Virus record (IMG/VR): IMGVR_UViG_3300028706_000031
Coordinates: 1-26,572 of that record
Source of the DNA: a virus
Reading direction: 5' to 3' (one strand)
Length of the DNA: 26,572 bases
Part shown: in pieces, positions 2,394 to 25,083 of the stretch
Layout: the number at the start of each line of letters is the position of its first letter
Numbering within the stretch: position 1 is the first letter of the stretch
Notes under the pieces: generated by a model
What the model saw: the letters and a program-made list of their open reading frames with translations, nothing else
The model's database searches: none
What the model was told of the DNA's origin: nothing
Position numbers and translations under genes: made by a program

Positions 2394-3056
2394 ATGAAAG
2401 TAAAGATAGAGGTTCCTGATTCACTTAGAGATGTTAGTTTAGGTCAATACCAAAAGTATCATAAAATTAATACTGAAGAAAACCAAAATTCTAATTTTTT
2501 ATTACATAAGACTGTAGAGATTTTCTGCAACCTAAATTTACAAAATGTAATTAAAGTAGAATTTAACAGTGTTATGAAGGTTGTTAAAATAATAAATAAG
2601 TTATTTGAGCAAGAATCAAAGTTAGTTCCTACGTTTACTATGGATAACGTTTCATACGGTTTTATTCCTGATTTAGATAAAATTACATTAGGAGAATATA
2701 TTGACTTAGATACAACAATTAGCGATTGGAGCAAGATGGATAAAGCAATGTCAATATTATATAGACCGATAAAGGACGTATATAAAGAAACATATATAGT
2801 AGAGGACTATAAAGGAACTACAGGTTATGAAAAATTTAAAAAGATGCCACTAGACATAGTTATGGGAAGCATACTTTTTTTTTACAATTTAAACAACGAG
2901 TTAGTGAAAACTATCCTGAAATCTTTGAACAAGGAAGCGACGAGGAATTCAACGTATCAGCAGAGAGAGGATTTACTAGGAAGTGGGGATGGTTTAACTC
3001 GATATATAGCTTGGGTGGAGGAGATGCAACCAAAATTGAATCTGTTACAGAATTAA
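2394..3056 (+). CDS. Tail assembly chaperone, short (zero-frame) product
   Basis: The zero-frame product is 220 residues. The N-terminal 160 residues contain a 'LGEYIDLD' motif, resembling proteins I associate with tail or baseplate-hub assembly chaperones. Up to residue 163 it is shared with the frameshift product; the last 57 residues are read in frame 0 across a stretch that is also open in frame -1. Position at the head of the tail operon, upstream of the tail-completion candidates and the tape measure gene, fits the gpG role of lambda: a chaperone that coats the tape measure protein. The slippery run T9 at 2875-2883 lies inside the gene. Assignment to the chaperone role is by context and arrangement, not proven homology. 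Confidence 0.7.
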   Translation: MKVKIEVPDSLRDVSLGQYQKYHKINTEENQNSNFLLHKTVEIFCNLNLQNVIKVEFNSVMKVVKIINKLFEQESKLVPTFTMDNVSYGFIPDLDKITLGEYIDLDTTISDWSKMDKAMSILYRPIKDVYKETYIVEDYKGTTGYEKFKKMPLDIVMGSILFFYNLNNELVKTILKSLNKEATRNSTYQQREDLLGSGDGLTRYIAWVEEMQPKLNLLQN

Positions 3057-3142
3057 ATGTACATTCTGCATTTTTTTATTTAGCTTATCAAAAAGATAAA
3101 CTAGAAATAGAAAAAAGAATACTTAAAAATAAAACACGATGA
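2394..3142 (+). CDS. Tail assembly chaperone, -1 frameshift fusion product
   Basis: If ribosomes slip back one base on T TTT TTT (2876-2882), reading continues from TTA at 2882 to TGA at 3140-3142. This gives 163 + 86 = 249 residues. The extension has protein-like features, notably 'RKWGWFNSIYSLGGGD' and 'LNVHSAFFYLAYQKDKLEIE'. It contains no methionine, and the -1 frame is closed by TAA at 2837-2839 with no ATG between there and the slip site, so it has no start of its own. Its stop overlaps the next start (ATGA, 3139-3142), filling what would otherwise be an 82-base gap. This matches the gpG/gpGT logic of tailed phages. The alternative is an indel error in a homopolymer: with ten Ts one long ORF would result. 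Confidence 0.7.
2875..2883 (+). other. Slippery nine-T run, probable -1 frameshift site
   Basis: Nine Ts read as CTT TTT TTT TAC in frame 0. The heptamer T TTT TTT (2876-2882) allows both P- and A-site tRNAs to re-pair perfectly after a -1 slip. I see no convincing downstream hairpin or pseudoknot. Transcriptional slippage on the T run is an alternative mechanism. Confidence 0.65.
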
Positions 3143-3594
3143 TAGGATTTTATGAACTAACAAAAAAAATAAAAGAAGCTCTGGAAGCAGAACCATTCGT
3201 GAATAATGTCTCGTATGGTAGTTTCGATAATGTTGATCTAAACAAACAGACTTTATTTCCATTATCACATATCATGGTTAATCAATGTAGTATTAATTCT
3301 AAAGTTCTAACATTTAATATATCTGTGATGTGTATGGACATAGTAGATATAAGCAAAGAAAAAACAACAGACTTATTTAGAGGTAATGATAATGAGCAAG
3401 ATGTACTAAATACACAATTAGGAGTGTTAGAAAGATTAATATCCCTACTTCAAAGAGGAGATCTATATTCCGATAAATATCAAGTTACCACGGATGTAGC
3501 ATGTGAGCCATTTGTAGATAGATTCGAAAACAAATTAGCAGGTTGGGTAGCAACATTTGATATACAAATACAAAATGATATGACAATATGTTAA
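3139..3594 (+). CDS. Tail completion / terminator-like protein
   Basis: The 151-residue protein starts at an ATG overlapping the stop of the frameshift product (ATGA). It has an alpha/beta pattern and segments such as 'NKQTLFPLSHIMVNQ', 'NDNEQDVLNTQLGVLERL' and 'RFENKLAGWVATFDIQIQN' that look strongly conserved and match a family I associate with Bacteroidota phage tail modules. Size, position beside the chaperone pair, and the partner gene after it fit a tail terminator, which caps the tail tube and joins it to the head. The role is inferred. It overlaps the next gene by 7 bases. Confidence 0.5.
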   Translation: MIGFYELTKKIKEALEAEPFVNNVSYGSFDNVDLNKQTLFPLSHIMVNQCSINSKVLTFNISVMCMDIVDISKEKTTDLFRGNDNEQDVLNTQLGVLERLISLLQRGDLYSDKYQVTTDVACEPFVDRFENKLAGWVATFDIQIQNDMTIC

Positions 3595-9863: not shown

Positions 9864-10745
9864 ATGAAATATATATCAGCTCAACCAGAATCAAAATACT
9901 ATGAATGGCAAGTAGATACCATGATAAATTCATATATTAAAAATGGAGTAAGTGAGTTAGATATAATAATATTGTTAGGTGATAATGGAGAATATAAATT
10001 TGATAAATTAAGATCTAAATATAAGGAAGTTAGCTTTATAAGTTACCCACATAAAACAGAATCTTATGCACCTGCTATTAAACCTTATTTAATGAGTAGA
10101 TATTTTAGTAGTTGTGCGTGTACGCATGGAGAACAATATTATTATGCAGATGCAGATACAATTTTATTAAATCCTTTACCTAAATTCCCTAAAGACACAG
10201 TTTTTATGTCAAACACTAGAGGTTATATTGGTGTTAAATATATAGAATCTAAAGGTAAAGACATTTTAGATATTATGTGTAATGCAGCAAAGATAGATAA
10301 AAATATAGTAAAAGATAGAGATTTAGAAGCTGGAGGAGCTCAATTCATATTTTCAGGAACAGATGGCAAATTCTGGAGAGATGTATACGTTAACTCTAAT
10401 GCATTATTTAGAGAGATGAGAAAGTATAATAACGAACACAAAGACAATTACACTGACAGTTATCCTATTCAAGCTTGGACTGCAGAGATGTGGGCAACTT
10501 TATGGCAATTTTGGAAAAAGGCATATAAAACAGAAATAACTCATCTTTTAGATTTTGTTTGGTCTACAGATCCAATCTCATCATTAGAGGGTAAAAATAT
10601 TCTACACAATGCAGGAGTTACTACACAAGAAGGAATGTTTAGAAAATCTCAGTGGATGAGAGAATATCCACCAAAAGATCTCAATGTAACAAAAACCCAT
10701 TGTAATTATTATTATTATAAGCAAGTATTAGAAGCAACATGTTAG
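9864..10745 (+). CDS. Glycosyltransferase-like protein (GT-A type, DAD motif)
   Basis: The 293 residues show an N-terminal alpha/beta half with strands 'DIIILLGD' and 'EVSFISYP', then 'YYYADADTILLNPL' with the DAD at 96-98. This corresponds to the DxD motif that binds the metal and sugar nucleotide in GT-A enzymes. Later signatures are 'GGAQFIFSG' (157-165), 'WTAEMWATLWQFW' and 'ILHNAGVT' (246-253), which resemble the acceptor-side and histidine elements of some glycosyltransferases. Length fits a single-domain enzyme without signal peptide, so it should act in the cytoplasm. It lies one base after the giant adhesin and before the tape measure gene, so a virion protein is a likely substrate. 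The substrate is inferred. Confidence 0.65.
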   Translation: MKYISAQPESKYYEWQVDTMINSYIKNGVSELDIIILLGDNGEYKFDKLRSKYKEVSFISYPHKTESYAPAIKPYLMSRYFSSCACTHGEQYYYADADTILLNPLPKFPKDTVFMSNTRGYIGVKYIESKGKDILDIMCNAAKIDKNIVKDRDLEAGGAQFIFSGTDGKFWRDVYVNSNALFREMRKYNNEHKDNYTDSYPIQAWTAEMWATLWQFWKKAYKTEITHLLDFVWSTDPISSLEGKNILHNAGVTTQEGMFRKSQWMREYPPKDLNVTKTHCNYYYYKQVLEATC

Positions 10746-10879
10746 GAAAAACTTTAGAATTATTAAGATTAGCAAAAGAAGAAGGAGTAAGAGGTGAGTA
10801 TATAGATATAGCTCTCGGTAAAAACAAAATGCCTACTAGTTTAAAAGAAGTAATGATGAAATTTAAAAACAAAGAATAA
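10739..10879 (+). CDS. 46-residue protein between GT and tape measure, unknown
   Basis: A short ORF from ATG 10739 (overlapping the stop of the glycosyltransferase gene) to TAA 10877-10879, which overlaps the tape measure ATG (TAATG). The product begins 'MLGKTLELLRLAKEEG' and is basic and helical. Both junctions are overlaps, which strongly suggests that it is translated, since it exactly fills the space between its neighbours. No family is recognised. A small tail-assembly factor would fit the location. Confidence 0.6.
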   Translation: MLGKTLELLRLAKEEGVRGEYIDIALGKNKMPTSLKEVMMKFKNKE

Positions 10880-12630
10880 TGGCTCAAGAAATAGATATTG
10901 ATATTAACGTAAAAACCAAAGGAGCTCAAAAGAATATTCAGAAGTTTGGTGTAGGTCTTGAAGGTATACAATCAGGAGCTAAAGCCGCAGGAAAGGCTAT
11001 GTTCTCATTAAACAAAATATTTAAAGCTAATGTTGCTATAAAAGCATTCAATGCTGTGTTGGATATTCTTAAAGATACATTTATGTCTAATCAGAAAGTT
11101 GTAGACACATTTGCTACAGCTACTACAAGTTTACAAATAGTATTTAACGACTTATTTAAGTTTGTAGAAAATAATGTAGGTGTTATAACTGGTTTCTTTA
11201 AAGGAATATTTGAAGATCCAGTTGGTGCTATCGTAGATTTTGGAAATGCAATAAAAGATAACGTAATAGAAAGATTTAATAGTTGGATTGAAACTTTAGG
11301 TTTAGTAGGAAGTGCTATAGCTAAAGTATTTAAAGGAGATTTTGCAGGAGCATTAGAGGATGCAAAAAGCGCAGGTAAAGAACTTGTAGATGTATATACT
11401 GGAGTAGACGGATCTTTTGATAAAATAGCAGAAGCGTTACCAGAATTAATTAAGAAAACAAAAGAATATGCTGGAGAAGTTATTAATGAGGCTAAAAGTG
11501 TTACTAAATTAAATAAGCAAAGAGATAAAAGCATTGTACAAAACAATATTATTAAAGAGCAAAAAGATAGAGAAGCAGAATCATTAAGACAAATAAGAGA
11601 TGAGGAAAGAAATACTATAAAAGAAAGAATACAAGCTAATAACGATCTTGCTTTAGTTTTAGAAGAGCAAGCGAAATTAATGTTAGCAAATAACCAATTA
11701 GTAATTGAAGCTGCCCAAGCACAAGTTGATTTAAATGCTAATCAAGAAAACGAAATAGCTTTACTAGAAGCAAAAGCAGAAAAAGCAGCAATATTAGCAC
11801 AAATAGAAGGATTTAGATCTGAACAAAAAGCAAATGATTTTGCTTTAGATAAAGAAAGATTAGAGTTAGAACAAACAACCGCACAAGGTGCAATTGAAAC
11901 TCAAAACATAATAAAGAAAGGACAAGCAGAGTTAATAGATAACGAAGTATTAAGGTTACAAAAGCAAAAACAAATTGCTGTAGAAGAAGAAAAAATAACA
12001 AAAGATTTACTTGAAAGTAAAAAAGCAAGTTATAAAGAAGGAACACAAGCCTTTATTGATGCAACTAATGAATTAAATAATTTTAATGCAGAAAGTGCTA
12101 ATACACAAAAGAAACTAGATAAAGATATAGCAGATGCAAAGGTTTCAGCTATTACAGGAGCGTTAGGATCATTAGCTAGTTTAGTTGGTGAGAATAGTAG
12201 ATTTGGAAAAGCAATAGCTATAACACAAGCAATAATAGACACTTATGCTGGTGCTACTAAAGCTTTTGGTCAAGGTGGAGTATTTGGATTCGTTGGAGCA
12301 GCATCAGTCCTTGCTGCAGGTTTTGCTAATATTAAAAAAATAACATCTACTAAAGAACCACCGTTACCAAGTTTTGCTAATGGAAGTTCAGGAGGTTCAA
12401 TATCTACTCCAGCAGCAGTTACATCTAGCCCACCAAGTATAAATGTTGTAGGTGCATCAGCAGAAAGTCAATTAGCACAAACAATCGCAGGATCACAAAC
12501 AAGACCAGTAAAAGCATACGTTGTAAGTACTGAGGTAAGTACTCAACAAGCATTAGACAGACAAACAGCAAACCAAGCAACATTAGGAAGAGCAAAAAGA
12601 GCTAGAGCAAATGTTCAAGGTGGTTTATAG
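10879..12630 (+). CDS. Tape measure protein
   Basis: The 583-residue protein sets tail length and is threaded through the tail tube. It starts with 'IDINVKTKGAQKNIQKFG', typical of tape measure N-termini. Hydrophobic/amphipathic segments lie at about residues 40-60 and 95-160, a long charged coiled coil at about 200-425, and a glycine/alanine-rich hydrophobic stretch at about 445-485 ('TYAGATKAFGQGGVFGFVGA'). The C-terminal tail is Ser/Pro-rich, then basic. At roughly 0.15 nm per residue it would predict a tail of about 87 nm, a rule-of-thumb estimate. It lies far from the tail-tube candidate at 15185, separated by head genes, which is unusual. Confidence 0.85.
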   Translation: MAQEIDIDINVKTKGAQKNIQKFGVGLEGIQSGAKAAGKAMFSLNKIFKANVAIKAFNAVLDILKDTFMSNQKVVDTFATATTSLQIVFNDLFKFVENNVGVITGFFKGIFEDPVGAIVDFGNAIKDNVIERFNSWIETLGLVGSAIAKVFKGDFAGALEDAKSAGKELVDVYTGVDGSFDKIAEALPELIKKTKEYAGEVINEAKSVTKLNKQRDKSIVQNNIIKEQKDREAESLRQIRDEERNTIKERIQANNDLALVLEEQAKLMLANNQLVIEAAQAQVDLNANQENEIALLEAKAEKAAILAQIEGFRSEQKANDFALDKERLELEQTTAQGAIETQNIIKKGQAELIDNEVLRLQKQKQIAVEEEKITKDLLESKKASYKEGTQAFIDATNELNNFNAESANTQKKLDKDIADAKVSAITGALGSLASLVGENSRFGKAIAITQAIIDTYAGATKAFGQGGVFGFVGAASVLAAGFANIKKITSTKEPPLPSFANGSSGGSISTPAAVTSSPPSINVVGASAESQLAQTIAGSQTRPVKAYVVSTEVSTQQALDRQTANQATLGRAKRARANVQGGL

Positions 12631-12668
12631 AAATTAAAACAAAAAATCAAAAAAAATATTAATATATT

Positions 12669-13307
12669 ATGGATATTATAGAACTTTTTATCGACGAAAA
12701 TGACGAAGTATCAGGTATTGATGCAATTAGTATAGTAGAGAATCCTGCTATTGAAGAAGATTTTGTTTATTTAAAAAATCAAGAATTTAAATTAGCAGAA
12801 AAAGATTCAGAAAAAAAAATATTGTTAGGCCCAGCCTTAATTCCAAATAAACCAATATATAGAAAGAGTGGTGATAAAGAATATTATATATATTTTTCTA
12901 GAAACACTGTAAGAAAAGCAAGTGAACTATTTTTAAAGAGATTTAAGCAGAATAGATCTACACTTGAACATGAATTGCCATTAGAAGGATTAACGGTTGT
13001 TGAATCATGGATAGTAGAAGGAGAGAAAGATAAAACTAGAATATACGACATGGATGTTCCTATAGGTACTTGGATGGTTTCTATGAAAGTTGATAATGAT
13101 GATGTTTGGGAAGATTTTATCAAATCAGGTAAAGTTAAAGGATTTTCAATAGAAGGTTATTTTGCTGATAAATTAGAAAGACCTAATGAGACTAATAAAC
13201 TTTCAGTTTGTGATTGTGAAAATAAATTAGACTCATGTGATTGTGAAAGGCAAGCAGAAAATAAATTAAGTAAATTAAAAGATATTTTAAAGCAACAGTA
13301 TGACTAG
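12669..13307 (+). CDS. XkdF-like prohead protease
   Basis: The 212 residues begin with 'MDIIELFIDENDEVSGIDAISIVENPA'-type sequence followed by the core of the XkdF-like family. Likely functional residues are H101 ('TLEHELPL'), E112-W114 ('VVESW'), 'PIGTWMVSMKV' (131-141) and S160 ('KGFSIEGYF'), which fit a His/Ser protease that processes scaffold and capsid proteins during head maturation. The C-terminus has Cys pairs ('CDCENKLDSCDCE') and a basic helix. Position directly upstream of the scaffold and capsid genes supports the assignment. It is preceded by a short A-rich leader, and the next ORF starts inside its end. Catalytic residues are assigned by eye. Confidence 0.75.
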   Translation: MDIIELFIDENDEVSGIDAISIVENPAIEEDFVYLKNQEFKLAEKDSEKKILLGPALIPNKPIYRKSGDKEYYIYFSRNTVRKASELFLKRFKQNRSTLEHELPLEGLTVVESWIVEGEKDKTRIYDMDVPIGTWMVSMKVDNDDVWEDFIKSGKVKGFSIEGYFADKLERPNETNKLSVCDCENKLDSCDCERQAENKLSKLKDILKQQYD

Positions 13308-13446
13308 AAGAAGATATAATGTCCCTCATAAAGACCAAAGAGCTTGTTTGTGTAGAGATAGCGATACATATTCTATAGAGTGTTGTGACGATCAAGACTA
13401 TATGAGACAGGGTATTGGAAACATTACCGGAACAGATAGTGAATAG
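13300..13446 (+). CDS. Cys-rich 48-residue conserved-looking protein
   Basis: A small ORF from ATG 13300, overlapping the end of the protease gene by 8 bases, to TAG 13444-13446. The product has a basic N-terminus, then 'ACLC', 'ECCDD' and 'QGIGNI'. The CxC ... CC pattern with a C-terminal QGIG matches short proteins I remember at this position in Bacteroidota phages, which makes it likely real in spite of its size. The cysteines could bind a metal or form disulfides. Its place between protease and scaffold genes suggests a head-morphogenesis role, but there is no direct evidence. Confidence 0.65.
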   Translation: MTRRRYNVPHKDQRACLCRDSDTYSIECCDDQDYMRQGIGNITGTDSE

Positions 13447-13505
13447 TAGTAAAAAAACTATATTTTAAAAATATAACAAACGGAAATTAATTTAATTATA
13501 ATAGT

Positions 13506-14156
13506 ATGAAAGCGACAGAAATGTTAAATAAAGTGAAGAATCTTTTAGGTGTTGAAGCTAGTGAAGAAATCAAGGAACAAGAAACTCAGTTAGAGTCTCA
13601 AGAAATCCAAGAAGAAACATTAGCAGAAGATACTACAAAAGAAACATCTTCAAAGAAAGTTGAGCTAGAAACAGCTGAACTGGAAAATGGTACAATTGTC
13701 GAAGCAGACTCTTTTGAATCAGGTAACGAAGTGTTTATTGTTACTGATGATGAGAGAGTAGCTCTACCAGTTGGAGAATACATTCTCGTTAACGGTGATA
13801 CTTTAATTGTTAAGGAAGAAGGTATAATTGAGAGTGTAGGTACTACAGAAGAATCTCCTGAAGAGGAAGTTCAAGCTGAGGAAGAAAAAGAAGTATCAAA
13901 CTATGCTACCAAAGAAGAACTTGCAGAAGTAAAAAAAGCTGTAGACGAAATCGTTTCAATGATCGAGGAACTAAGCTATGGTAAAAAAGAAGAAATGACT
14001 TCTGAAGAAATAGATCAAAAAGAAAATTTATCTGAAGTTGAAAAAGTTAAACACAATCCAGAAAGTGAAGAAAAAACTCAATTAAAAATTCCTTCATCAA
14101 ACGGAACTATGAATACTTTAGATAGAGTAATGCAAACAATATCAAATTTTAACTAA
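13506..14156 (+). CDS. Capsid scaffold protein
   Basis: The 216 residues are strongly acidic, with Glu-rich helices at about 15-50 and 120-190. A beta-rich insert lies at about residues 54-112 ('LENGTIVEADSFESGNEVFI' through 'LPVGEYILVNGDTLIVKEEG'). The C-terminal part is helical, ends 'LDRVMQTISNFN', and probably contacts the capsid protein. An acidic coiled-coil protein directly between the protease and the major capsid gene is the standard position of a scaffold, around which the prohead forms before proteolytic removal. The insert resembles that of other Bacteroidota phage scaffolds I know. No own terminator separates it from the capsid gene. Confidence 0.7.
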   Translation: MKATEMLNKVKNLLGVEASEEIKEQETQLESQEIQEETLAEDTTKETSSKKVELETAELENGTIVEADSFESGNEVFIVTDDERVALPVGEYILVNGDTLIVKEEGIIESVGTTEESPEEEVQAEEEKEVSNYATKEELAEVKKAVDEIVSMIEELSYGKKEEMTSEEIDQKENLSEVEKVKHNPESEEKTQLKIPSSNGTMNTLDRVMQTISNFN

Positions 14157-14168
14157 AAATAAACAAAA

Positions 14169-15113
14169 ATGGCAGATAGTACAACATCGATAACTTCTAC
14201 TTATGCAGGAGAATTTGCAGGCAAATATGTCTCTGCAGCTCTTTTAAGTGGAAATACATTAGCTAATAACTTAATAACAATTAAGCCAAATGTAAAATAT
14301 AAAGAAGTAATGAAAAAAGTTGCTTCTACAAGTATTGTTAAAAACGGAGCATGTGACTTTACAGGACAAGCAGACGTATTAACTTTAACTGAAAGAATAT
14401 TAACACCAGAAGAATTCCAAGTGAACTTAGAGCTTTGTAAAAAAGACTACGTATCAGACTGGGAAGCAATTCAAATGGGATATTCAACAATTAATGAAAA
14501 TATGCCTCCTGCATTCTCTGATTTCTTATTAGGACATGTATCGGCTAAAGTTGCTCAAAAAATTGAAAATAATATTTGGACAGGAACTGATGCAACAGAC
14601 GGAGAGTTTGCTGGATTCATTACTACTTTAGGTGCTGACGCAGACGTTAATGACGTTACAGGTACAGCATCAACTGCAGCAAACATTATAACGGAGCTTG
14701 GTAAGATAGCTGATGCTATCCCAACTGCAGCATATAGTTCTGAAGATATGACTATTTATCTACCAGCTAATATGTACAGAAACTACGTTAGAGCACTAGG
14801 AGGCTTTGGAGCATCTGGTTTAGGAGCTGCAGGGACAAATAATCAAGGTACTCAATGGTACTCAAAAGGAGCAGGTCTTCAATTTGATGGTATTCCAGTT
14901 GTATTAGCACAAGGTTTATCAAGCAATGACGCCGTAGCAGCTGAAAAATCAAACCTATTCTTTGGAACTGGTTTAATGTCAGACTACAACGAGGTAAAAG
15001 TATTAGACATGGCTGATCTAGATGGTTCTCAAAATGTAAGAATCGTAATGAGATTTACTGCTGGTATTCAGCACGCTATCGGATCTGACATTGTATTATA
15101 CGCAACAGCGTAA
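14169..15113 (+). CDS. Major capsid protein (HK97-fold candidate)
   Basis: The 314 residues start 'MADSTTSITSTYAGEFAGKY'. They show the architecture of HK97-type capsid proteins: an N-terminal arm, an extended strand region with 'KYKEVMKKVASTSIVKNGAC', a long spine-like helix region with 'AKVAQKIENNIWTG' (127-140), an A-domain with 'YLPANMYRNYVRALGG', then 'GIPVVLAQGL'. It ends with a 'MRFTAGIQHAIGSDIVLY' strand. Preceded by protease and scaffold and followed by its own strong terminator, it has the typical context of the most abundant virion protein. The fold is inferred, since sequence alone does not show it directly. Confidence 0.85.
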   Translation: MADSTTSITSTYAGEFAGKYVSAALLSGNTLANNLITIKPNVKYKEVMKKVASTSIVKNGACDFTGQADVLTLTERILTPEEFQVNLELCKKDYVSDWEAIQMGYSTINENMPPAFSDFLLGHVSAKVAQKIENNIWTGTDATDGEFAGFITTLGADADVNDVTGTASTAANIITELGKIADAIPTAAYSSEDMTIYLPANMYRNYVRALGGFGASGLGAAGTNNQGTQWYSKGAGLQFDGIPVVLAQGLSSNDAVAAEKSNLFFGTGLMSDYNEVKVLDMADLDGSQNVRIVMRFTAGIQHAIGSDIVLYATA

Positions 15114-15138
15114 TTAAAGATTGTATAACATAAGAAAG

Positions 15139-15170
15139 GGTAGGTAGCTAAACTGCCTACCTTTTTTTTT
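15139..15170 (+). terminator. Rho-independent terminator after the capsid gene
   Basis: GGTAGGTAG (15139-15147) pairs with CTGCCTACC (15153-15161), with one T-G wobble and a five-base loop, followed by nine Ts (15162-15170). This is one of the strongest stem-loops in the window. It probably ends part of the transcripts after MCP. Confidence 0.85.
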
Positions 15171-15184
15171 AAAATAAAAATAAT

Positions 15185-15733
15185 ATGGCTTGTGATTTAA
15201 CACTAGGAAGAAAAGAACCTTGTAAAGACGTAGTTGGAGGTATAAAAAAAGTATATTTTACTGATTTTGGTGATTTTGGAACTGTAACAGATTCAAATGA
15301 AGAAATTACTGATATGAGTGGAACTTTTACTGCCTTTGAATATGATTTAAAAGGGAATTCATCTTTCGAAACAACAGTAAATAGCTCAAGAGAAAATGGA
15401 ACAACATTTTTTGAGCAAACACTAAACATAACATTAAAAAAATTATCTAAAGAGGATAACAAAGAATTAAAGCTGTTAGCTTATGGGAGACCACATATAG
15501 CAGTAGAAGATTATAATAGTAATGTTATGGTGATGGGATTAGAAAATGGAGCAGACGTAAGTGGAGGAACAATAGTAACAGGAGCAGCAATGGGAGACCT
15601 TTCAGGGTACACATTAACGTTCACTGCACAGGAAACTTCACCAGCTAAATTTTTAAATAGTCCTACAGCAGCAGATCCATACGCAGGTATGGCGTCAGCT
15701 ACAGTAACAGTAACTGAAGGAACTAACTCTTAA
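15185..15733 (+). CDS. Major tail tube protein candidate
   Basis: The 182-residue, beta-rich protein begins 'MACDLTLGRKEPCKDVVGGI' with Cys at 3 and 13, followed by 'VYFTDFGDF', a central strand region ('FFEQTLNITLKKLSKED') and a C-terminal 'GYTLTFTAQETSPAKFLNS'. It fits a family I associate with Bacteroidota phage tail-tube proteins. It lies between two strong terminators and directly follows MCP, which is what an abundant virion protein would have. It is separated by head genes from the tape measure gene. Other possible roles are a head decoration protein or a minor structural protein. Confidence 0.55.
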   Translation: MACDLTLGRKEPCKDVVGGIKKVYFTDFGDFGTVTDSNEEITDMSGTFTAFEYDLKGNSSFETTVNSSRENGTTFFEQTLNITLKKLSKEDNKELKLLAYGRPHIAVEDYNSNVMVMGLENGADVSGGTIVTGAAMGDLSGYTLTFTAQETSPAKFLNSPTAADPYAGMASATVTVTEGTNS

Positions 15734-15755
15734 TAATTCCTTAATTTTAATAAAG

Positions 15756-15780
15756 AAGGCACTAATTGGTGCCTTTTTTT
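15756..15780 (+). terminator. Rho-independent terminator
   Basis: AAGGCAC (15756-15762) pairs with GTGCCTT (15769-15775), with a six-base loop and a T run to 15780. It closes the tail-tube candidate gene as a separate unit. Confidence 0.8.
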
Positions 15781-15824
15781 ATGCTTAATAATTAACAAAA
15801 AAACATTTATTTTATTGTATTAGT

Positions 15825-16202
15825 ATGATAATATTACAAAGCTCAACAAGTTCTCAAACAATTAACTTTATACCAAGAGAATATACAACGGCTGAAACTG
15901 ACATTTATAACATATCAATTATAAATGAAACAACAAACAAATCAGTATATGATGAAGACACAAACGCTTTTACTTTGCTAGATTATTATTATACATACTC
16001 TGCAGCGTTTACAAGAGTGGTAAATTCAGCAACGGTATCCAGTTTTGATGAAGATACTTTTTACGTTTTAACAATTAAAAAAAGTGGAAGTATTATTTAT
16101 AAAGATAAAATATTTTGTACTAATCAAACCACATCAGATTATACTGTTAATTATAATCAGTACGACGAGCAAGAAACAACCAACGAATTTATAGTATTAT
16201 AA
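15825..16202 (+). CDS. Small beta-rich structural protein, unknown
   Basis: The 125 residues alternate hydrophobic and polar residues in a beta-sandwich-like pattern, with 'TINFIPREY' near the start, 'TFYVLTIKKSGSIIYKDKIFC' in the second half, and an acidic C-terminus ending 'NEFIVL'. It has a single cysteine and no membrane helix. Similar short beta proteins occur just before the portal in Bacteroidota phages I recall, but their role is unknown to me. It ends two bases before the portal ATG, so it is probably co-translated with it. The upstream leader (15781-15824) is AT-rich, and a promoter there is possible but not recognisable. Confidence 0.5.
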   Translation: MIILQSSTSSQTINFIPREYTTAETDIYNISIINETTNKSVYDEDTNAFTLLDYYYTYSAAFTRVVNSATVSSFDEDTFYVLTIKKSGSIIYKDKIFCTNQTTSDYTVNYNQYDEQETTNEFIVL

Positions 16203-16203
16203 T

Positions 16204-17982
16204 ATGGATAATTTACACATAGTCACGTTAGCAGAATATAACAGACCTAAAATAAAAGAACAAAACAATAGAGATTGGGTGAGTTATGGGGACAATAACG
16301 ATTATTATTCTTATTTGATTAAACTCTTTATAAATTCAGCTACTAATAATGCTATTATTCAAGGAGTATCACAAATGATTTATGGAAAAGGAATAGATGC
16401 GTTAGATAGCTCATCTAAACCTAACGAATATGCTGCAATGAGATCTATATTTAATGATAATGATTTAAGAAACGTAATTTTAGATTTAAAATTGTTAGGA
16501 GAAGGAAGTTTCCAAGTATTATACCAAGATAAAAAAGTAGTAAAAGCAGAACATTTTCCAAGACAAACATTAAGAGCAGAAAAATGTAATGATGATGGAG
16601 AGATCGAAGCATACTATTATTTTCATGATTGGACTAAGATAAAACCAAGTAGCAAACCAAAGAGAATATCAGCTTTTGGTTTTGGTAACGGGAAAGAACC
16701 AGAGATTAAAATAGTAAAAAGATACGTAAGTGGATATGATTATTATTGTCCAGTAGATTATCAAGGAGCATTAGCTTATGCGGAATTAGAATCCGAAATA
16801 TCTGATTATTTAATTAATGATGTTCAAAATGGATTTTCAGGAACTAAAGTTGTTAATTTTAATAATGGAGTACCTGATAGAGAAAAACAATTGCAAGTTA
16901 AAGGCGATGTGATGAACAAGTTAACAGGTGCAAGAGGAGAAAAAGTAATTATAGCGTTTAACAATAATGCAGAGAGCAAAACAACAATAGATGACGTTCC
17001 TTTAACAGATGCACCAGCTCATTATCAGTATTTATCCAATGAGTGCTCTAATAAGCTAATTATAGGCCACAGAATAACGTCTCCATTACTTTTAGGTATA
17101 AGAACAGAGAATAATGGATTAGGTTCAAATGCAGAGGAAATCAAGACCGCATCTTTGTTATTCGATAATGTAACTATAAAGCCTTACCAAGATCTAATAA
17201 CTGAGTGCATGAAAATGATTCTGAGTGTAAATGATATTAGTTTAAAGTTGTATTTTAAAACCCTTCAACCTCTTTCTTTTATTGAAACTGATAACGCAGT
17301 AACAGATGAAGCAAGAGAAGAAGAAACAGGAATAAAATTATCAGAAGAGCTATATAATGATGTTCCAAAAGAACATATTAATGAATTATTAGAAAAAGGT
17401 GAAAATGAAGAAGATTTAATTAAAGATGGTTGGGAGTTAGTAGATTCAAGACCTGTAGAATATGAACAAGAAGAAGGTTTGGACAAAATGGTAGGATTAG
17501 CGAGTACAGGTACTGCTAGACCAAACGCGAAATCAAAACAAGATGGCGAAAATGAAGAAGGATTTAGATTTAGAGTAAGATACCAATATTCACCATTAAA
17601 AACTACTAAAAGAAAAATTAAAGATAAAACAGTAGACGTTACAAGAGATTTTTGTGACAAAATGATCACTGCAAAAAAACTTTATAGAAAAGAAGACATA
17701 CAACAAATGTCTAACAAACCTGTTAACGCGGGATTTGGAGTAAAGTCATCAGCAACATACGATATTTGGTTCTATAAAGGTGGAGCTAATTGCCATCATT
17801 TTTGGATGCGAAAAACATTTATGAGTAAAAAAGAAGGTTCAAATCCGGATGTTAAGAATCCAAACGCAGATATCTCGGTTAACAAGGCAAAAAAAGAAGG
17901 ATTCAAACCAGAAAAAAATAATATAAAGGTGGCAAAGAGACCTATTGATATGCCAAATAACGGATATAAAAACCCTAGATAA
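16204..17982 (+). CDS. Portal protein with C-terminal extension
   Basis: The portal forms the ring at the head vertex through which DNA enters and leaves. Residues 1 to about 400 have the expected alpha/beta core: 'WVSYGDNNDYYSYLIKLF' (26-43), 'SATNNAIIQGVSQMIYGKG' (46-64), a 'LLGEGSFQVLY' strand, 'ITSPLLLGIRTENNGLGSNA' near 290-310, and the helical 'KPYQDLITECMKMIL' clip/stem region. From about 450 on, an extra basic domain follows, with 'RDFCDKMITAKKLYRKEDI', 'YDIWFYKGGANCHHFW' and a disordered Lys/Asn/Pro tail. At 592 residues it is longer than typical siphophage portals. The core assignment is strong; the function of the extension is unknown. Confidence 0.85.
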   Translation: MDNLHIVTLAEYNRPKIKEQNNRDWVSYGDNNDYYSYLIKLFINSATNNAIIQGVSQMIYGKGIDALDSSSKPNEYAAMRSIFNDNDLRNVILDLKLLGEGSFQVLYQDKKVVKAEHFPRQTLRAEKCNDDGEIEAYYYFHDWTKIKPSSKPKRISAFGFGNGKEPEIKIVKRYVSGYDYYCPVDYQGALAYAELESEISDYLINDVQNGFSGTKVVNFNNGVPDREKQLQVKGDVMNKLTGARGEKVIIAFNNNAESKTTIDDVPLTDAPAHYQYLSNECSNKLIIGHRITSPLLLGIRTENNGLGSNAEEIKTASLLFDNVTIKPYQDLITECMKMILSVNDISLKLYFKTLQPLSFIETDNAVTDEAREEETGIKLSEELYNDVPKEHINELLEKGENEEDLIKDGWELVDSRPVEYEQEEGLDKMVGLASTGTARPNAKSKQDGENEEGFRFRVRYQYSPLKTTKRKIKDKTVDVTRDFCDKMITAKKLYRKEDIQQMSNKPVNAGFGVKSSATYDIWFYKGGANCHHFWMRKTFMSKKEGSNPDVKNPNADISVNKAKKEGFKPEKNNIKVAKRPIDMPNNGYKNPR

Positions 17983-19371: not shown

Positions 19372-21099
19372 ATGTTTGGACAAGGTATAAATTTTGGAAC
19401 TTTAGCAGCAGCACAAGTAGTAGCAGATTTTCTTGCAATAGCAGGAGGAGCAGGTGGTGGTGTCGGTGGTGGAGGTGCTGGTGGGTATAGAACATCTGCA
19501 GGAACATCAGGTGGAGGTGGAAGTGCTGAATCAAAAATTACATTAGTAGATGCAACAACTTATACATTTACTCTAGGTGCAGGTGGAACAGGAGTAGCAA
19601 ATGGTAGTGGAGTAAAAAGTGGCAATGGTGTTGATTCATCTATTGCAGCAACTGGAATTACAACAATTACATCTGTTGGAGGAGGTGGTGCAGGAACTGG
19701 AGGTGCAATAGGAAGTTATAATAGTGGTGCAGATGGAGGTTCAAGTGCTGGTGCTGGAACTGCTAATCAAGGTTTTGCAGGAAGTAATGCAGAACAAGGA
19801 GGTGGTGCTGGTGGAGGTGCAGGTTCAGTAGGTGCAACTCCAAGTGCTTATTCAGGAGGTAACGGAGGTTCAGGTGTATCTTCTACTATAACAGGTTCTG
19901 CAGTATCAAGAGCAGGTGGTGGTGGAGGTTTAGGTTATGGTGCAGGAAGTGCAGGAACTGCAAGTAACGGAGGAGGAGCTGGAGGATATGGTTTCCCATC
20001 TACAGGAACAAGTGGAACAGCTAATACAGGTGGTGGAGCAGGTGGAGGTTCAACTACAGGCTCAAATGGTGGTTCAGGATTAATCATATTTAGATTACCA
20101 ACTTCTGCTTATACAACAGGATATACAACAGGTTCGCCAACAGTTACAACAGATGGCACAGATTCAATATTAAAATATACAGGTTCAGGAACTTATAATC
20201 ACGGACTGACAGCAGTAAATATGGACTTTTTAGTAATTGCTGGAGGAGGAGCAGGTGGAAACGCTTTAGGTGACGGTTCTGGAGGTATTGGTGGTGGAGG
20301 AGCAGGTGCAGGAGGATTGAGAACGTCTTATGGTTCTACATCTGGAGGTGGAGCAAGTGCAGAAGATAATATTATATTTTCATCAGGCACTTTTACAATC
20401 ACAGTCGGTGCTGGAGGAGCGTCAGGTGTAGGAAATTCAACAGATAGTTCTATTGCCGCTACAGGTTTAACTACGATTACATCTTTAAAAGGTGGTTATG
20501 GTGGTTCGCGTGCAGGAAATGTTCTTGGACAAGGTGGAAATGGTACTGTTGGTTCAGCAGGGGCAACTGCTACTGATTCAGGAGGAGCTACTCCAGTTGG
20601 TACAACAGGACAAGGATATGCATCTGGAGCACCAGTTACTTCAGGGACAACAAGGTCAAGTTCAGGAGGTGGAGGTGCCGGTGGAGCTGGTGTTTCAGCA
20701 GGTTGGGATGGTCCTGGTGAAAACGGAGGTACTGGTGGTTTAGGATTATCAGTATCAATAACAGGTTCTTCTGTTGGTTATGCTGGCGGAGGTGGCGGTG
20801 GAGCTGGAAATACAAGTAGTGGTGTACCTGGAGGTGTAGGAACATCAGGAGGTGGTTCTGGAGGTTCTACTCACGGAAATAATGGTGGAAACGGAACAGC
20901 TAACACAGGCGGTGGAGCAGGAGGTGCTGGAGGTGGTTCATCTTACGGAAGTTCTGGAGCAGGAGGTTCAGGTGTGGTTATATTAAGATTACCGACAGCA
21001 GATTATTCAGGAAGTACAACAGGAAGTCCTACAGTAACAACATCAGGTAGTGATACAATAATGAAATTTACAGGTAGTGGTACATACGTACATAGTTAA
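19372..21099 (+). CDS. Glycine-rich fibre tip protein with two long repeats
   Basis: The 575 residues consist of two glycine-rich units. The first runs from about residue 17 ('VADFLAIAGGAGG') to about 283, the second from about 284 ('MDFLVIAGGGAGG') to the end. Each includes a Gly-rich core with a '[S/A]IAATG[I/L]TTITS' segment and ends with 'LPT...TTGSPTVTT...GSGTY'. Glycine arrangements of this kind are found in phage adhesins whose tips form polyglycine helix bundles, and such tips decide host range in T4-like phages. The gene is purine-rich (GGA/GGT/GCA codons), unlike its neighbours. Host recognition is a reasonable inference; no receptor can be named. Confidence 0.65.
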   Translation: MFGQGINFGTLAAAQVVADFLAIAGGAGGGVGGGGAGGYRTSAGTSGGGGSAESKITLVDATTYTFTLGAGGTGVANGSGVKSGNGVDSSIAATGITTITSVGGGGAGTGGAIGSYNSGADGGSSAGAGTANQGFAGSNAEQGGGAGGGAGSVGATPSAYSGGNGGSGVSSTITGSAVSRAGGGGGLGYGAGSAGTASNGGGAGGYGFPSTGTSGTANTGGGAGGGSTTGSNGGSGLIIFRLPTSAYTTGYTTGSPTVTTDGTDSILKYTGSGTYNHGLTAVNMDFLVIAGGGAGGNALGDGSGGIGGGGAGAGGLRTSYGSTSGGGASAEDNIIFSSGTFTITVGAGGASGVGNSTDSSIAATGLTTITSLKGGYGGSRAGNVLGQGGNGTVGSAGATATDSGGATPVGTTGQGYASGAPVTSGTTRSSSGGGGAGGAGVSAGWDGPGENGGTGGLGLSVSITGSSVGYAGGGGGGAGNTSSGVPGGVGTSGGGSGGSTHGNNGGNGTANTGGGAGGAGGGSSYGSSGAGGSGVVILRLPTADYSGSTTGSPTVTTSGSDTIMKFTGSGTYVHS

Positions 21100-23385: not shown

Positions 23386-23413
23386 AGGGATATTAATTTA
23401 TCCCTTTTTTTTT
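23386..23413 (+). terminator. Rho-independent terminator
   Basis: AGGGATA (23386-23392) pairs with TATCCCT (23399-23405) around a six-base loop, followed by a run of Ts to 23413. It separates the NinG-like gene from the next group. Confidence 0.8.
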
Positions 23414-24180: not shown

Positions 24181-25083
24181 ATGATATTAGATCCTTATAT
24201 ACTTTATAATAGACTATTAGATATAAAACATGGTCGTATAAAAGAAGGATTAAAAATAGATGTTCCAGAGATAGACGAATATTTAAGGTATAAACAAGGA
24301 AATTTTAACTTGTTGATTGGTCATGCAAATGTTGGTAAAACTACAGTTGTACTTTATTTATTCGTTCTTTGGGCTCTTAAACATAAGCTCAAGTTTTTAA
24401 TTTGGTCTTCAGAAAATACTCCACAAGCTATACAAAGAAAAATTATAGAATTCAAAATGCAAAAGCCTTTAACTCGTGCAAATGACGAGGAAATAAAAAC
24501 AGCTTTAGCTTGGTCAACATTACATTTTAAAATTATAGACGTTGAGGAACTTTACACATATACACAATTACTAGGAGAAGCAAAAGAAATTAAAGATGCG
24601 TGGGATTATGATGCAATACTAATAGATCCATACAACTCTTTAATAAAAGACAAAAAACTATATAAAGAGGTAGGAGGTCATGAATATGATTATCAAGTAG
24701 CTTCTGAATTTAGATTGTTTGCTAAAAAAAATAACATTACTGTTTTTTTAAATGCTCATGGAGTAACAGAAGCAATTAGAAGAACCCACATAAAAGGACA
24801 TAACTACGAAGGATTATCAATGCCACTTAATATGGCAAGCGTTGAAGGAGGAGGAAAATGGGGAAATAGATGTGATGATCTGATTTGCATACACAGATAC
24901 ACTTCACATCCTACAGATTGGATTTACTCAATGATTAGTGTTTTAAAAATAAAAGAAATGGAGACAGGTGGAAGATGTACACCATTTGATAATCCAATAA
25001 AATTAAAGATGGAAAAAAACAACATAGGCTTTACGTTTATGGATAAAGATTTAATGAAAAAAAATAAAATAATAGAGTTTTGA
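24181..25083 (+). CDS. DnaB/RecA-like replicative helicase ATPase domain
   Basis: The 300 residues contain Walker A GHANVGKT (47-54), a 'FLIWSSENT' strand with an acidic residue (E78) in the position expected for catalysis, Walker B 'DAILIDPYNSL' (144-154, D149), and 'VFLNAHGVTEA' with a polar sensor residue. Order and spacing match the RecA-like core of DnaB-family helicases. The N-terminal primase-interacting domain is absent and a conserved 'GGGKWGNRCDDLICIHRY' motif is present. It could unwind DNA at the fork, or be a recombination ATPase. It directly follows the ssDNA-binding candidate and ends in a TGA overlapping a TTG start. Confidence 0.75.
   Translation: MILDPYILYNRLLDIKHGRIKEGLKIDVPEIDEYLRYKQGNFNLLIGHANVGKTTVVLYLFVLWALKHKLKFLIWSSENTPQAIQRKIIEFKMQKPLTRANDEEIKTALAWSTLHFKIIDVEELYTYTQLLGEAKEIKDAWDYDAILIDPYNSLIKDKKLYKEVGGHEYDYQVASEFRLFAKKNNITVFLNAHGVTEAIRRTHIKGHNYEGLSMPLNMASVEGGGKWGNRCDDLICIHRYTSHPTDWIYSMISVLKIKEMETGGRCTPFDNPIKLKMEKNNIGFTFMDKDLMKKNKIIEF

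Follow-up and report, generated by a model that had tools for sequence, protein, structure and literature searches.

A conserved poly-T frame switch in a putative tail gene of flavobacterial phages, probably operated by RNA polymerase slippage

Two reading frames past a run of nine Ts

How can a reading frame without a start of its own be translated, and is it the ribosome or the RNA polymerase (RNAP) that gives access to it? The question is raised by a gene in the window analysed here, a complete IMG/VR virus record of 26,572 bases. The zero frame of this plus-strand gene (2394..3056) runs from an ATG at 2394 to a TAA at 3054-3056 and encodes a G-like product of 220 aa, classified as phrog_32199. 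It contains a T9 run at 2875..2883, read as CTT TTT TTT TAC, after which the zero frame continues for 57 codons. The -1 frame is closed upstream by a TAA at 2837-2839 and is open from there to a TGA at 3140-3142, without an ATG. Its extension past the run (2882..3142, plus strand) comprises 86 aa of a T-like domain with the motif FxxKWGW.xS.Y and five predicted helices, and would be produced solely when fused to residues 1-163 of the zero-frame product. The two frames overlap on the plus strand at 2884..3056, and the -1 stop overlaps, as ATGA, the ATG of the next plus-strand gene (3139..3594). The T9 and its two frames agree with a preliminary description of the locus, which had reported the T9, a zero frame continuing for 57 codons past it and a -1 frame open to 3142 but lacking its own start; we rechecked each of these in the sequence. 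The 749-nt gene was found identical in three further IMG/VR contigs from different samples.

The window holds other homopolymers. An A9 at 1961-1969 is shared by two overlapping ORFs (1834-2272; 71 and 104 aa, in a +1 relation). We rejected it as a second switch: near relatives retain the two ORFs without retaining the A9. The only remaining T9 runs of the window, at 15162-15170 and 23405-23413, are both intergenic and are possibly terminators.

Conservation of the run and selection on both frames

Relatives were collected by IMG/VR scans, a genome-contig scan and tblastn on cultured phages, giving 438 loci including the window. The N-terminal and C-terminal parts were queried separately, and thus the T run was not presupposed by the result. 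Removal of duplicates left 309 distinct genes with both parts, which form 186 clusters by shared 12-mers. They derive from IMG/VR contigs, one Winogradskyella MAG contig and two Nonlabens phages, P12024L and P12024S, with identity down to ~25%; no cultured relatives were found besides these two phages, both of which read CTT TTT TTT TAT. In 309/309 of these genes the C-terminal part is shifted to the -1 frame. Run length is 9 Ts in 253, 10 in 54 and 12 in 2, and none of the 309 has a run shorter than 9. No single-frame fused gene was found among them in the IMG/VR and genome-contig scans; relatives with a continuous frame and no homopolymer, which the preliminary description had considered decisive against a frame switch, are thus absent from this set. 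Two extra loci, truncated within the C-terminal part, likewise carry T9. Across the 474 kb that these loci encode on the same strand, T9 occurs only twice elsewhere. The comparison indicates that a poly-T site is kept at the same position in more than 300 related viruses, whose hosts appear to be marine flavobacteria.

The two tails differ in how freely their lengths vary. Among relatives, the -1 tail is near-constant at 80-90 codons and the zero-frame tail spans 16-83, with a median of 57. The ~57 codons noted initially are therefore correct for the window but are not a general length, and because the zero-frame tail varies more, its far end probably matters less. The junction with the next gene, among 186 representatives, is an ATGA overlap in 99 and of the TAATG type in 35.

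A codon-level substitution analysis, proposed as a check at the outset, was carried out on 73 disjoint pairs without length differences, with rates given by zero-frame codon position 1/2/3. Upstream of the run, the rates (.085/.046/.259) have the pattern of a normal gene; past the zero-frame stop (.048/.202/.079), they have that of a normal gene in the -1 frame. In the overlap (.056/.118/.116), the wobble positions of both frames are depressed, and the lowest rate is found at the position that is wobble in neither. Purifying selection thus acts on both frames downstream of the T run. Over 151 representatives, the chance of an open -1 frame, once zero-frame amino acids and codon usage are taken into account, averages only 0.011 per sequence, and the reverse chance, of an open zero frame given the -1 frame, only 0.015; chance is therefore excluded as the source of the two open frames. 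The architecture found in 309/309 relatives, with its dual-frame selection, is that of a short and an extended product sharing an N-terminus, the fusion being predicted. The initial proposal of a programmed -1 access with dual coding is strongly supported by these results.

Three other readings of the locus were weighed against the same relatives. Homopolymers are error-prone, and the window by itself could not exclude a mistake in assembly or sequencing, or gene decay. However, 309 genomes share the offset and have 9 or more Ts at the site, T9 is present in independent assemblies and in cultured phages, including the complete JQ823122 and JQ823123, and the overlap is under purifying selection in both frames. 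Error and pseudogene are refuted by the relatives, and we give them practically no weight. The -1 ORF could instead be an independent gene that has its own start, which is how gene 41 of P12024L/S is annotated; P12024L_41 begins at an ATG at 24473. Yet only 4/151 representatives have a -1 frame ATG before 60 nt past the slip site, and conservation of the -1 frame starts at the slip site itself, with an LxF motif upstream of that annotated ATG, which makes a separate gene very improbable. Since homopolymers mutate readily, replication slippage between T9 and T10 might also turn the fusion on and off. We find such phase variation hardly credible: genomes with T10 and T12 still have the -1 offset, indicating that their additional Ts are substitutions or whole codons, and 0/309 are fused.

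Polymerase or ribosome

Slippage of the transcribing polymerase and slippage of the ribosome would lead to the same product. By either route, a -1 ribosomal slip or the addition of one U to the transcript, the fusion reads ...SILFF-LQFKQR..., and mass spectrometry consequently cannot separate the two mechanisms. The pattern of variation at the run bears on the choice between them. Expressed as Ts before the first full codon, full TTT codons, and Ts after the last, the run is found in each of the three codon phases, as (2,2,1), (2,2,2), (0,3,1), (1,2,2), (0,3,0) and (2,3,1). Forms with 7 or 8 Ts that still hold an in-phase T TTT TTT were never seen among the 309 relatives. Where 2882 or 2883 is not T, 41/41 relatives (30/30 clusters) have a T at 2874 that brings the run back to 9 or more; where the usual run is intact, T2874 occurs in just 20/268 relatives (14/156 clusters; Fisher p about 3e-24 on clusters). 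Among the genomes extended by T2874, 14 retain T TTT TTC.

This compensation calls for caution. Genomes carrying C or G at 2882 could slip on a heptamer located one codon upstream, which would likewise require T2874, and a model with a movable U7 heptamer accounts for much of the compensation; only the (1,2,2) and (0,3,0) forms, in 4 clusters, contradict it. In addition, the Ts flanking the core are partly forced by two-frame coding, with positions 2875 and 2883 constrained in one or both frames. Two clean cases bear on this point: ATG TTT TTT TTT CTG, in 5 genes (2 clusters), whose heptamer would be complete even without T2874, and AAT/AGT TTT TTT TTG, in 2 genes, where the loss of an upstream T is accompanied by two Ts downstream. 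By arithmetic on the counts, these cases together have p roughly 1e-4 to 1e-3 if simple independence is assumed. As judged from these alignments, the conserved property is run length (at least 9 T in any codon phase), not the position of the heptamer.

The same fusion would result from a programmed -1 shift of the ribosome at T TTT TTT or T TTT TTC, as in lambda gpG/gpGT, and the long run would then be a by-product of coding constraints such as those at 2875 and 2883, or would offer the ribosome several slip positions. In its favour, an X XXY YYZ heptamer is present in phase, as U UUU UUU, in all 309 relatives. Ribosomal shifts of -1, -2 or +1 are also the classical route to the tail chaperone gene pair in tailed phages, lambda gpG/gpGT among them, according to a review (PMC5009743). 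Against it, there is no genome with 7 or 8 Ts, though the heptamer would fit in either, and T2874 compensation is found even where the heptamer is already intact, with 5 genomes keeping T TTT TTT without need of the extra T. A stimulatory downstream structure is common, though not universal, at programmed -1 ribosomal sites. None was detectable here over 151 representatives (mean z -0.11 +/- 0.08), in keeping with the lack of a clear structure noted for the window alone, and no upstream structure was found at the slip site. We therefore consider ribosomal slippage an unlikely, though not a negligible, account. The heptamer that the preliminary description had pointed to is real, but as the primary mechanism it fits poorly with a run conserved in length, in any phase and without structure.

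The same observations favour transcriptional slippage, which had initially been offered as a fallback. A long conserved A/T homopolymer, as expected for programmed transcriptional realignment, is present as T>=9 in 309/309 with compensatory extension. Because the run is never shorter than 9, occurs in all three phases, is compensated by T2874 and is followed by no downstream structure, insertion of one U by RNA polymerase is probably the mechanism, in preference to ribosomal slippage, as far as sequence comparison can tell. Insertion slippage by E. coli RNAP has a strong bias to poly(T) (PMC6260861), and slippage insertions grow exponentially with run length, the hybrid being 9 bp (PMC5574713). 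We propose that the host RNA polymerase would slip backward on the template A9 while a 9-bp rU:dA hybrid lies wholly inside the run, adding one U to a fraction of the transcripts. Transcripts with U9 would yield the 220-aa protein, and those with U10 a 249-aa fusion composed of the 163 shared residues and 86 residues from the -1 frame. Both products would be needed, since both frames are selected past the T run; the common form would be in excess, and the rare fusion would link the tape measure to tail subunits. Taken together, we consider it likely that this tail-module gene carries a programmed frame switch operated by RNA polymerase slippage on the T run and probably producing a tail-assembly chaperone pair like lambda gpG/gpGT.

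Tail context and comparison with known systems

The frameshift gene lies between a large terminase gene (215-1387), which precedes it, and the tail genes, and on the same strand as a gene for a tape-measure-like protein (10879-12630; phrog_3336, E=2e-9), upstream of it by ~7.7 kb and five genes (3142 versus 10879). The gene order at 9864-17982 is unusual, with a phrog_4417 protein (unknown function) and the tape measure before protease, capsid and portal. Further on, 19372-21099 encodes a glycine-rich repeat protein of 575 aa, which may be a tail fibre or an adhesin.

The zero-frame product matches phrog_32199, a PHROG family of unknown function (E=3.3e-18), as do all 71 aligned members; 7/71 members also touch phrog_166, 'tail protein' (best E=1.3e-4). 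There was no significant match in Pfam and NCBIfam, tail-chaperone models included, and no match in the PDB by sequence or by fold. Confidence in the AlphaFold models is moderate (pLDDT 76.5 and 74.8), and in BFVD the zero-frame model matches unnamed phage proteins and, weakly, a 'tail assembly chaperone' (E=0.02). Based on architecture, position and this weak fold match, a function resembling that of the lambda G/GT tail chaperone switch is the most likely one. The lambda parallel drawn in the preliminary description is thus reasonable in architecture, with fold comparison and synteny lending it weak support.

Another fold relative in BFVD, R9VW65 (E=2e-4), matched by length AGN89393 of Flavobacterium phage 6H. 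In the region 10000-10927 (minus strand), this gene ends soon after T TTT TTC, with an unannotated -1 ORF downstream. It was rejected as a clear parallel, because a simple -1 slip would run straight into TAG; the arrangement may reflect another kind of shift, a double one, or an error in the sequence.

On balance, we lean towards the broader reading that, throughout a very diverse group of tailed phages of flavobacteria, RNA polymerase slippage determines the ratio of a tail-morphogenesis pair, with an invariant run of at least 9 T and ~57 codons translated and selected in both frames. If true, the polymerase, and not the ribosome, would be able to drive a widely conserved tail-chaperone ratio switch in flavobacterial hosts, and more than 300 natural sites would make the minimum run length for slippage (9) readable. 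In the literature searched, transcriptional slippage was not described for any phage tail chaperone and only ribosomal shifts were described for such phage genes, so a polymerase-run switch would be new relative to it.

The Inhavirus pairs P12024L_40/41 and P12024S_38/39 are direct homologues with identical T9 and offset. They differ in a zero-frame tail of ~26 codons and in being annotated as two hypothetical genes. The GenBank records (JQ823123.1 23946-24640 and its counterpart) should have one frameshift gene in place of two hypothetical proteins. The fusion protein is missed in current annotations, where the cultured phages carry two unrelated hypothetical genes.

The lambda gpG/gpGT tail-assembly chaperone frameshift is said to have been described by Levin (1993) and by Xu, Hendrix and Duda (2004). 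Chaperones of the lambda type bind both the tape measure and the tail tube protein and are not part of the virion. The present gene shares with it an N-terminal domain common to both products, a -1 extension near the 3' end that ends at or overlaps the next gene, and a place in the tail module. In contrast to the lambda heptamer, there is here a run of at least 9 T, with a mechanism that is probably transcriptional; a long zero-frame tail (median 57 codons) is under selection; no Pfam/NCBIfam tail-chaperone match was obtained by sequence; and the gene adjoins a terminase gene, with the tape-measure gene ~7.7 kb downstream.

Two bacterial genes offer parallels in mechanism, according to the review (PMC5009743). 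In the Shigella type III secretion needle-length gene spa13, RNAP slippage adds a C-terminal extension that overlaps the next gene, with a link to the length control of a tubular structure; spa13 is a bacterial plasmid gene for an unrelated protein, and is described there without a long dual-coding overlap. Thermus thermophilus dnaX likewise uses programmed realignment on a homopolymer to make two products, although it is a different gene and its slipped mRNAs give the shorter product.
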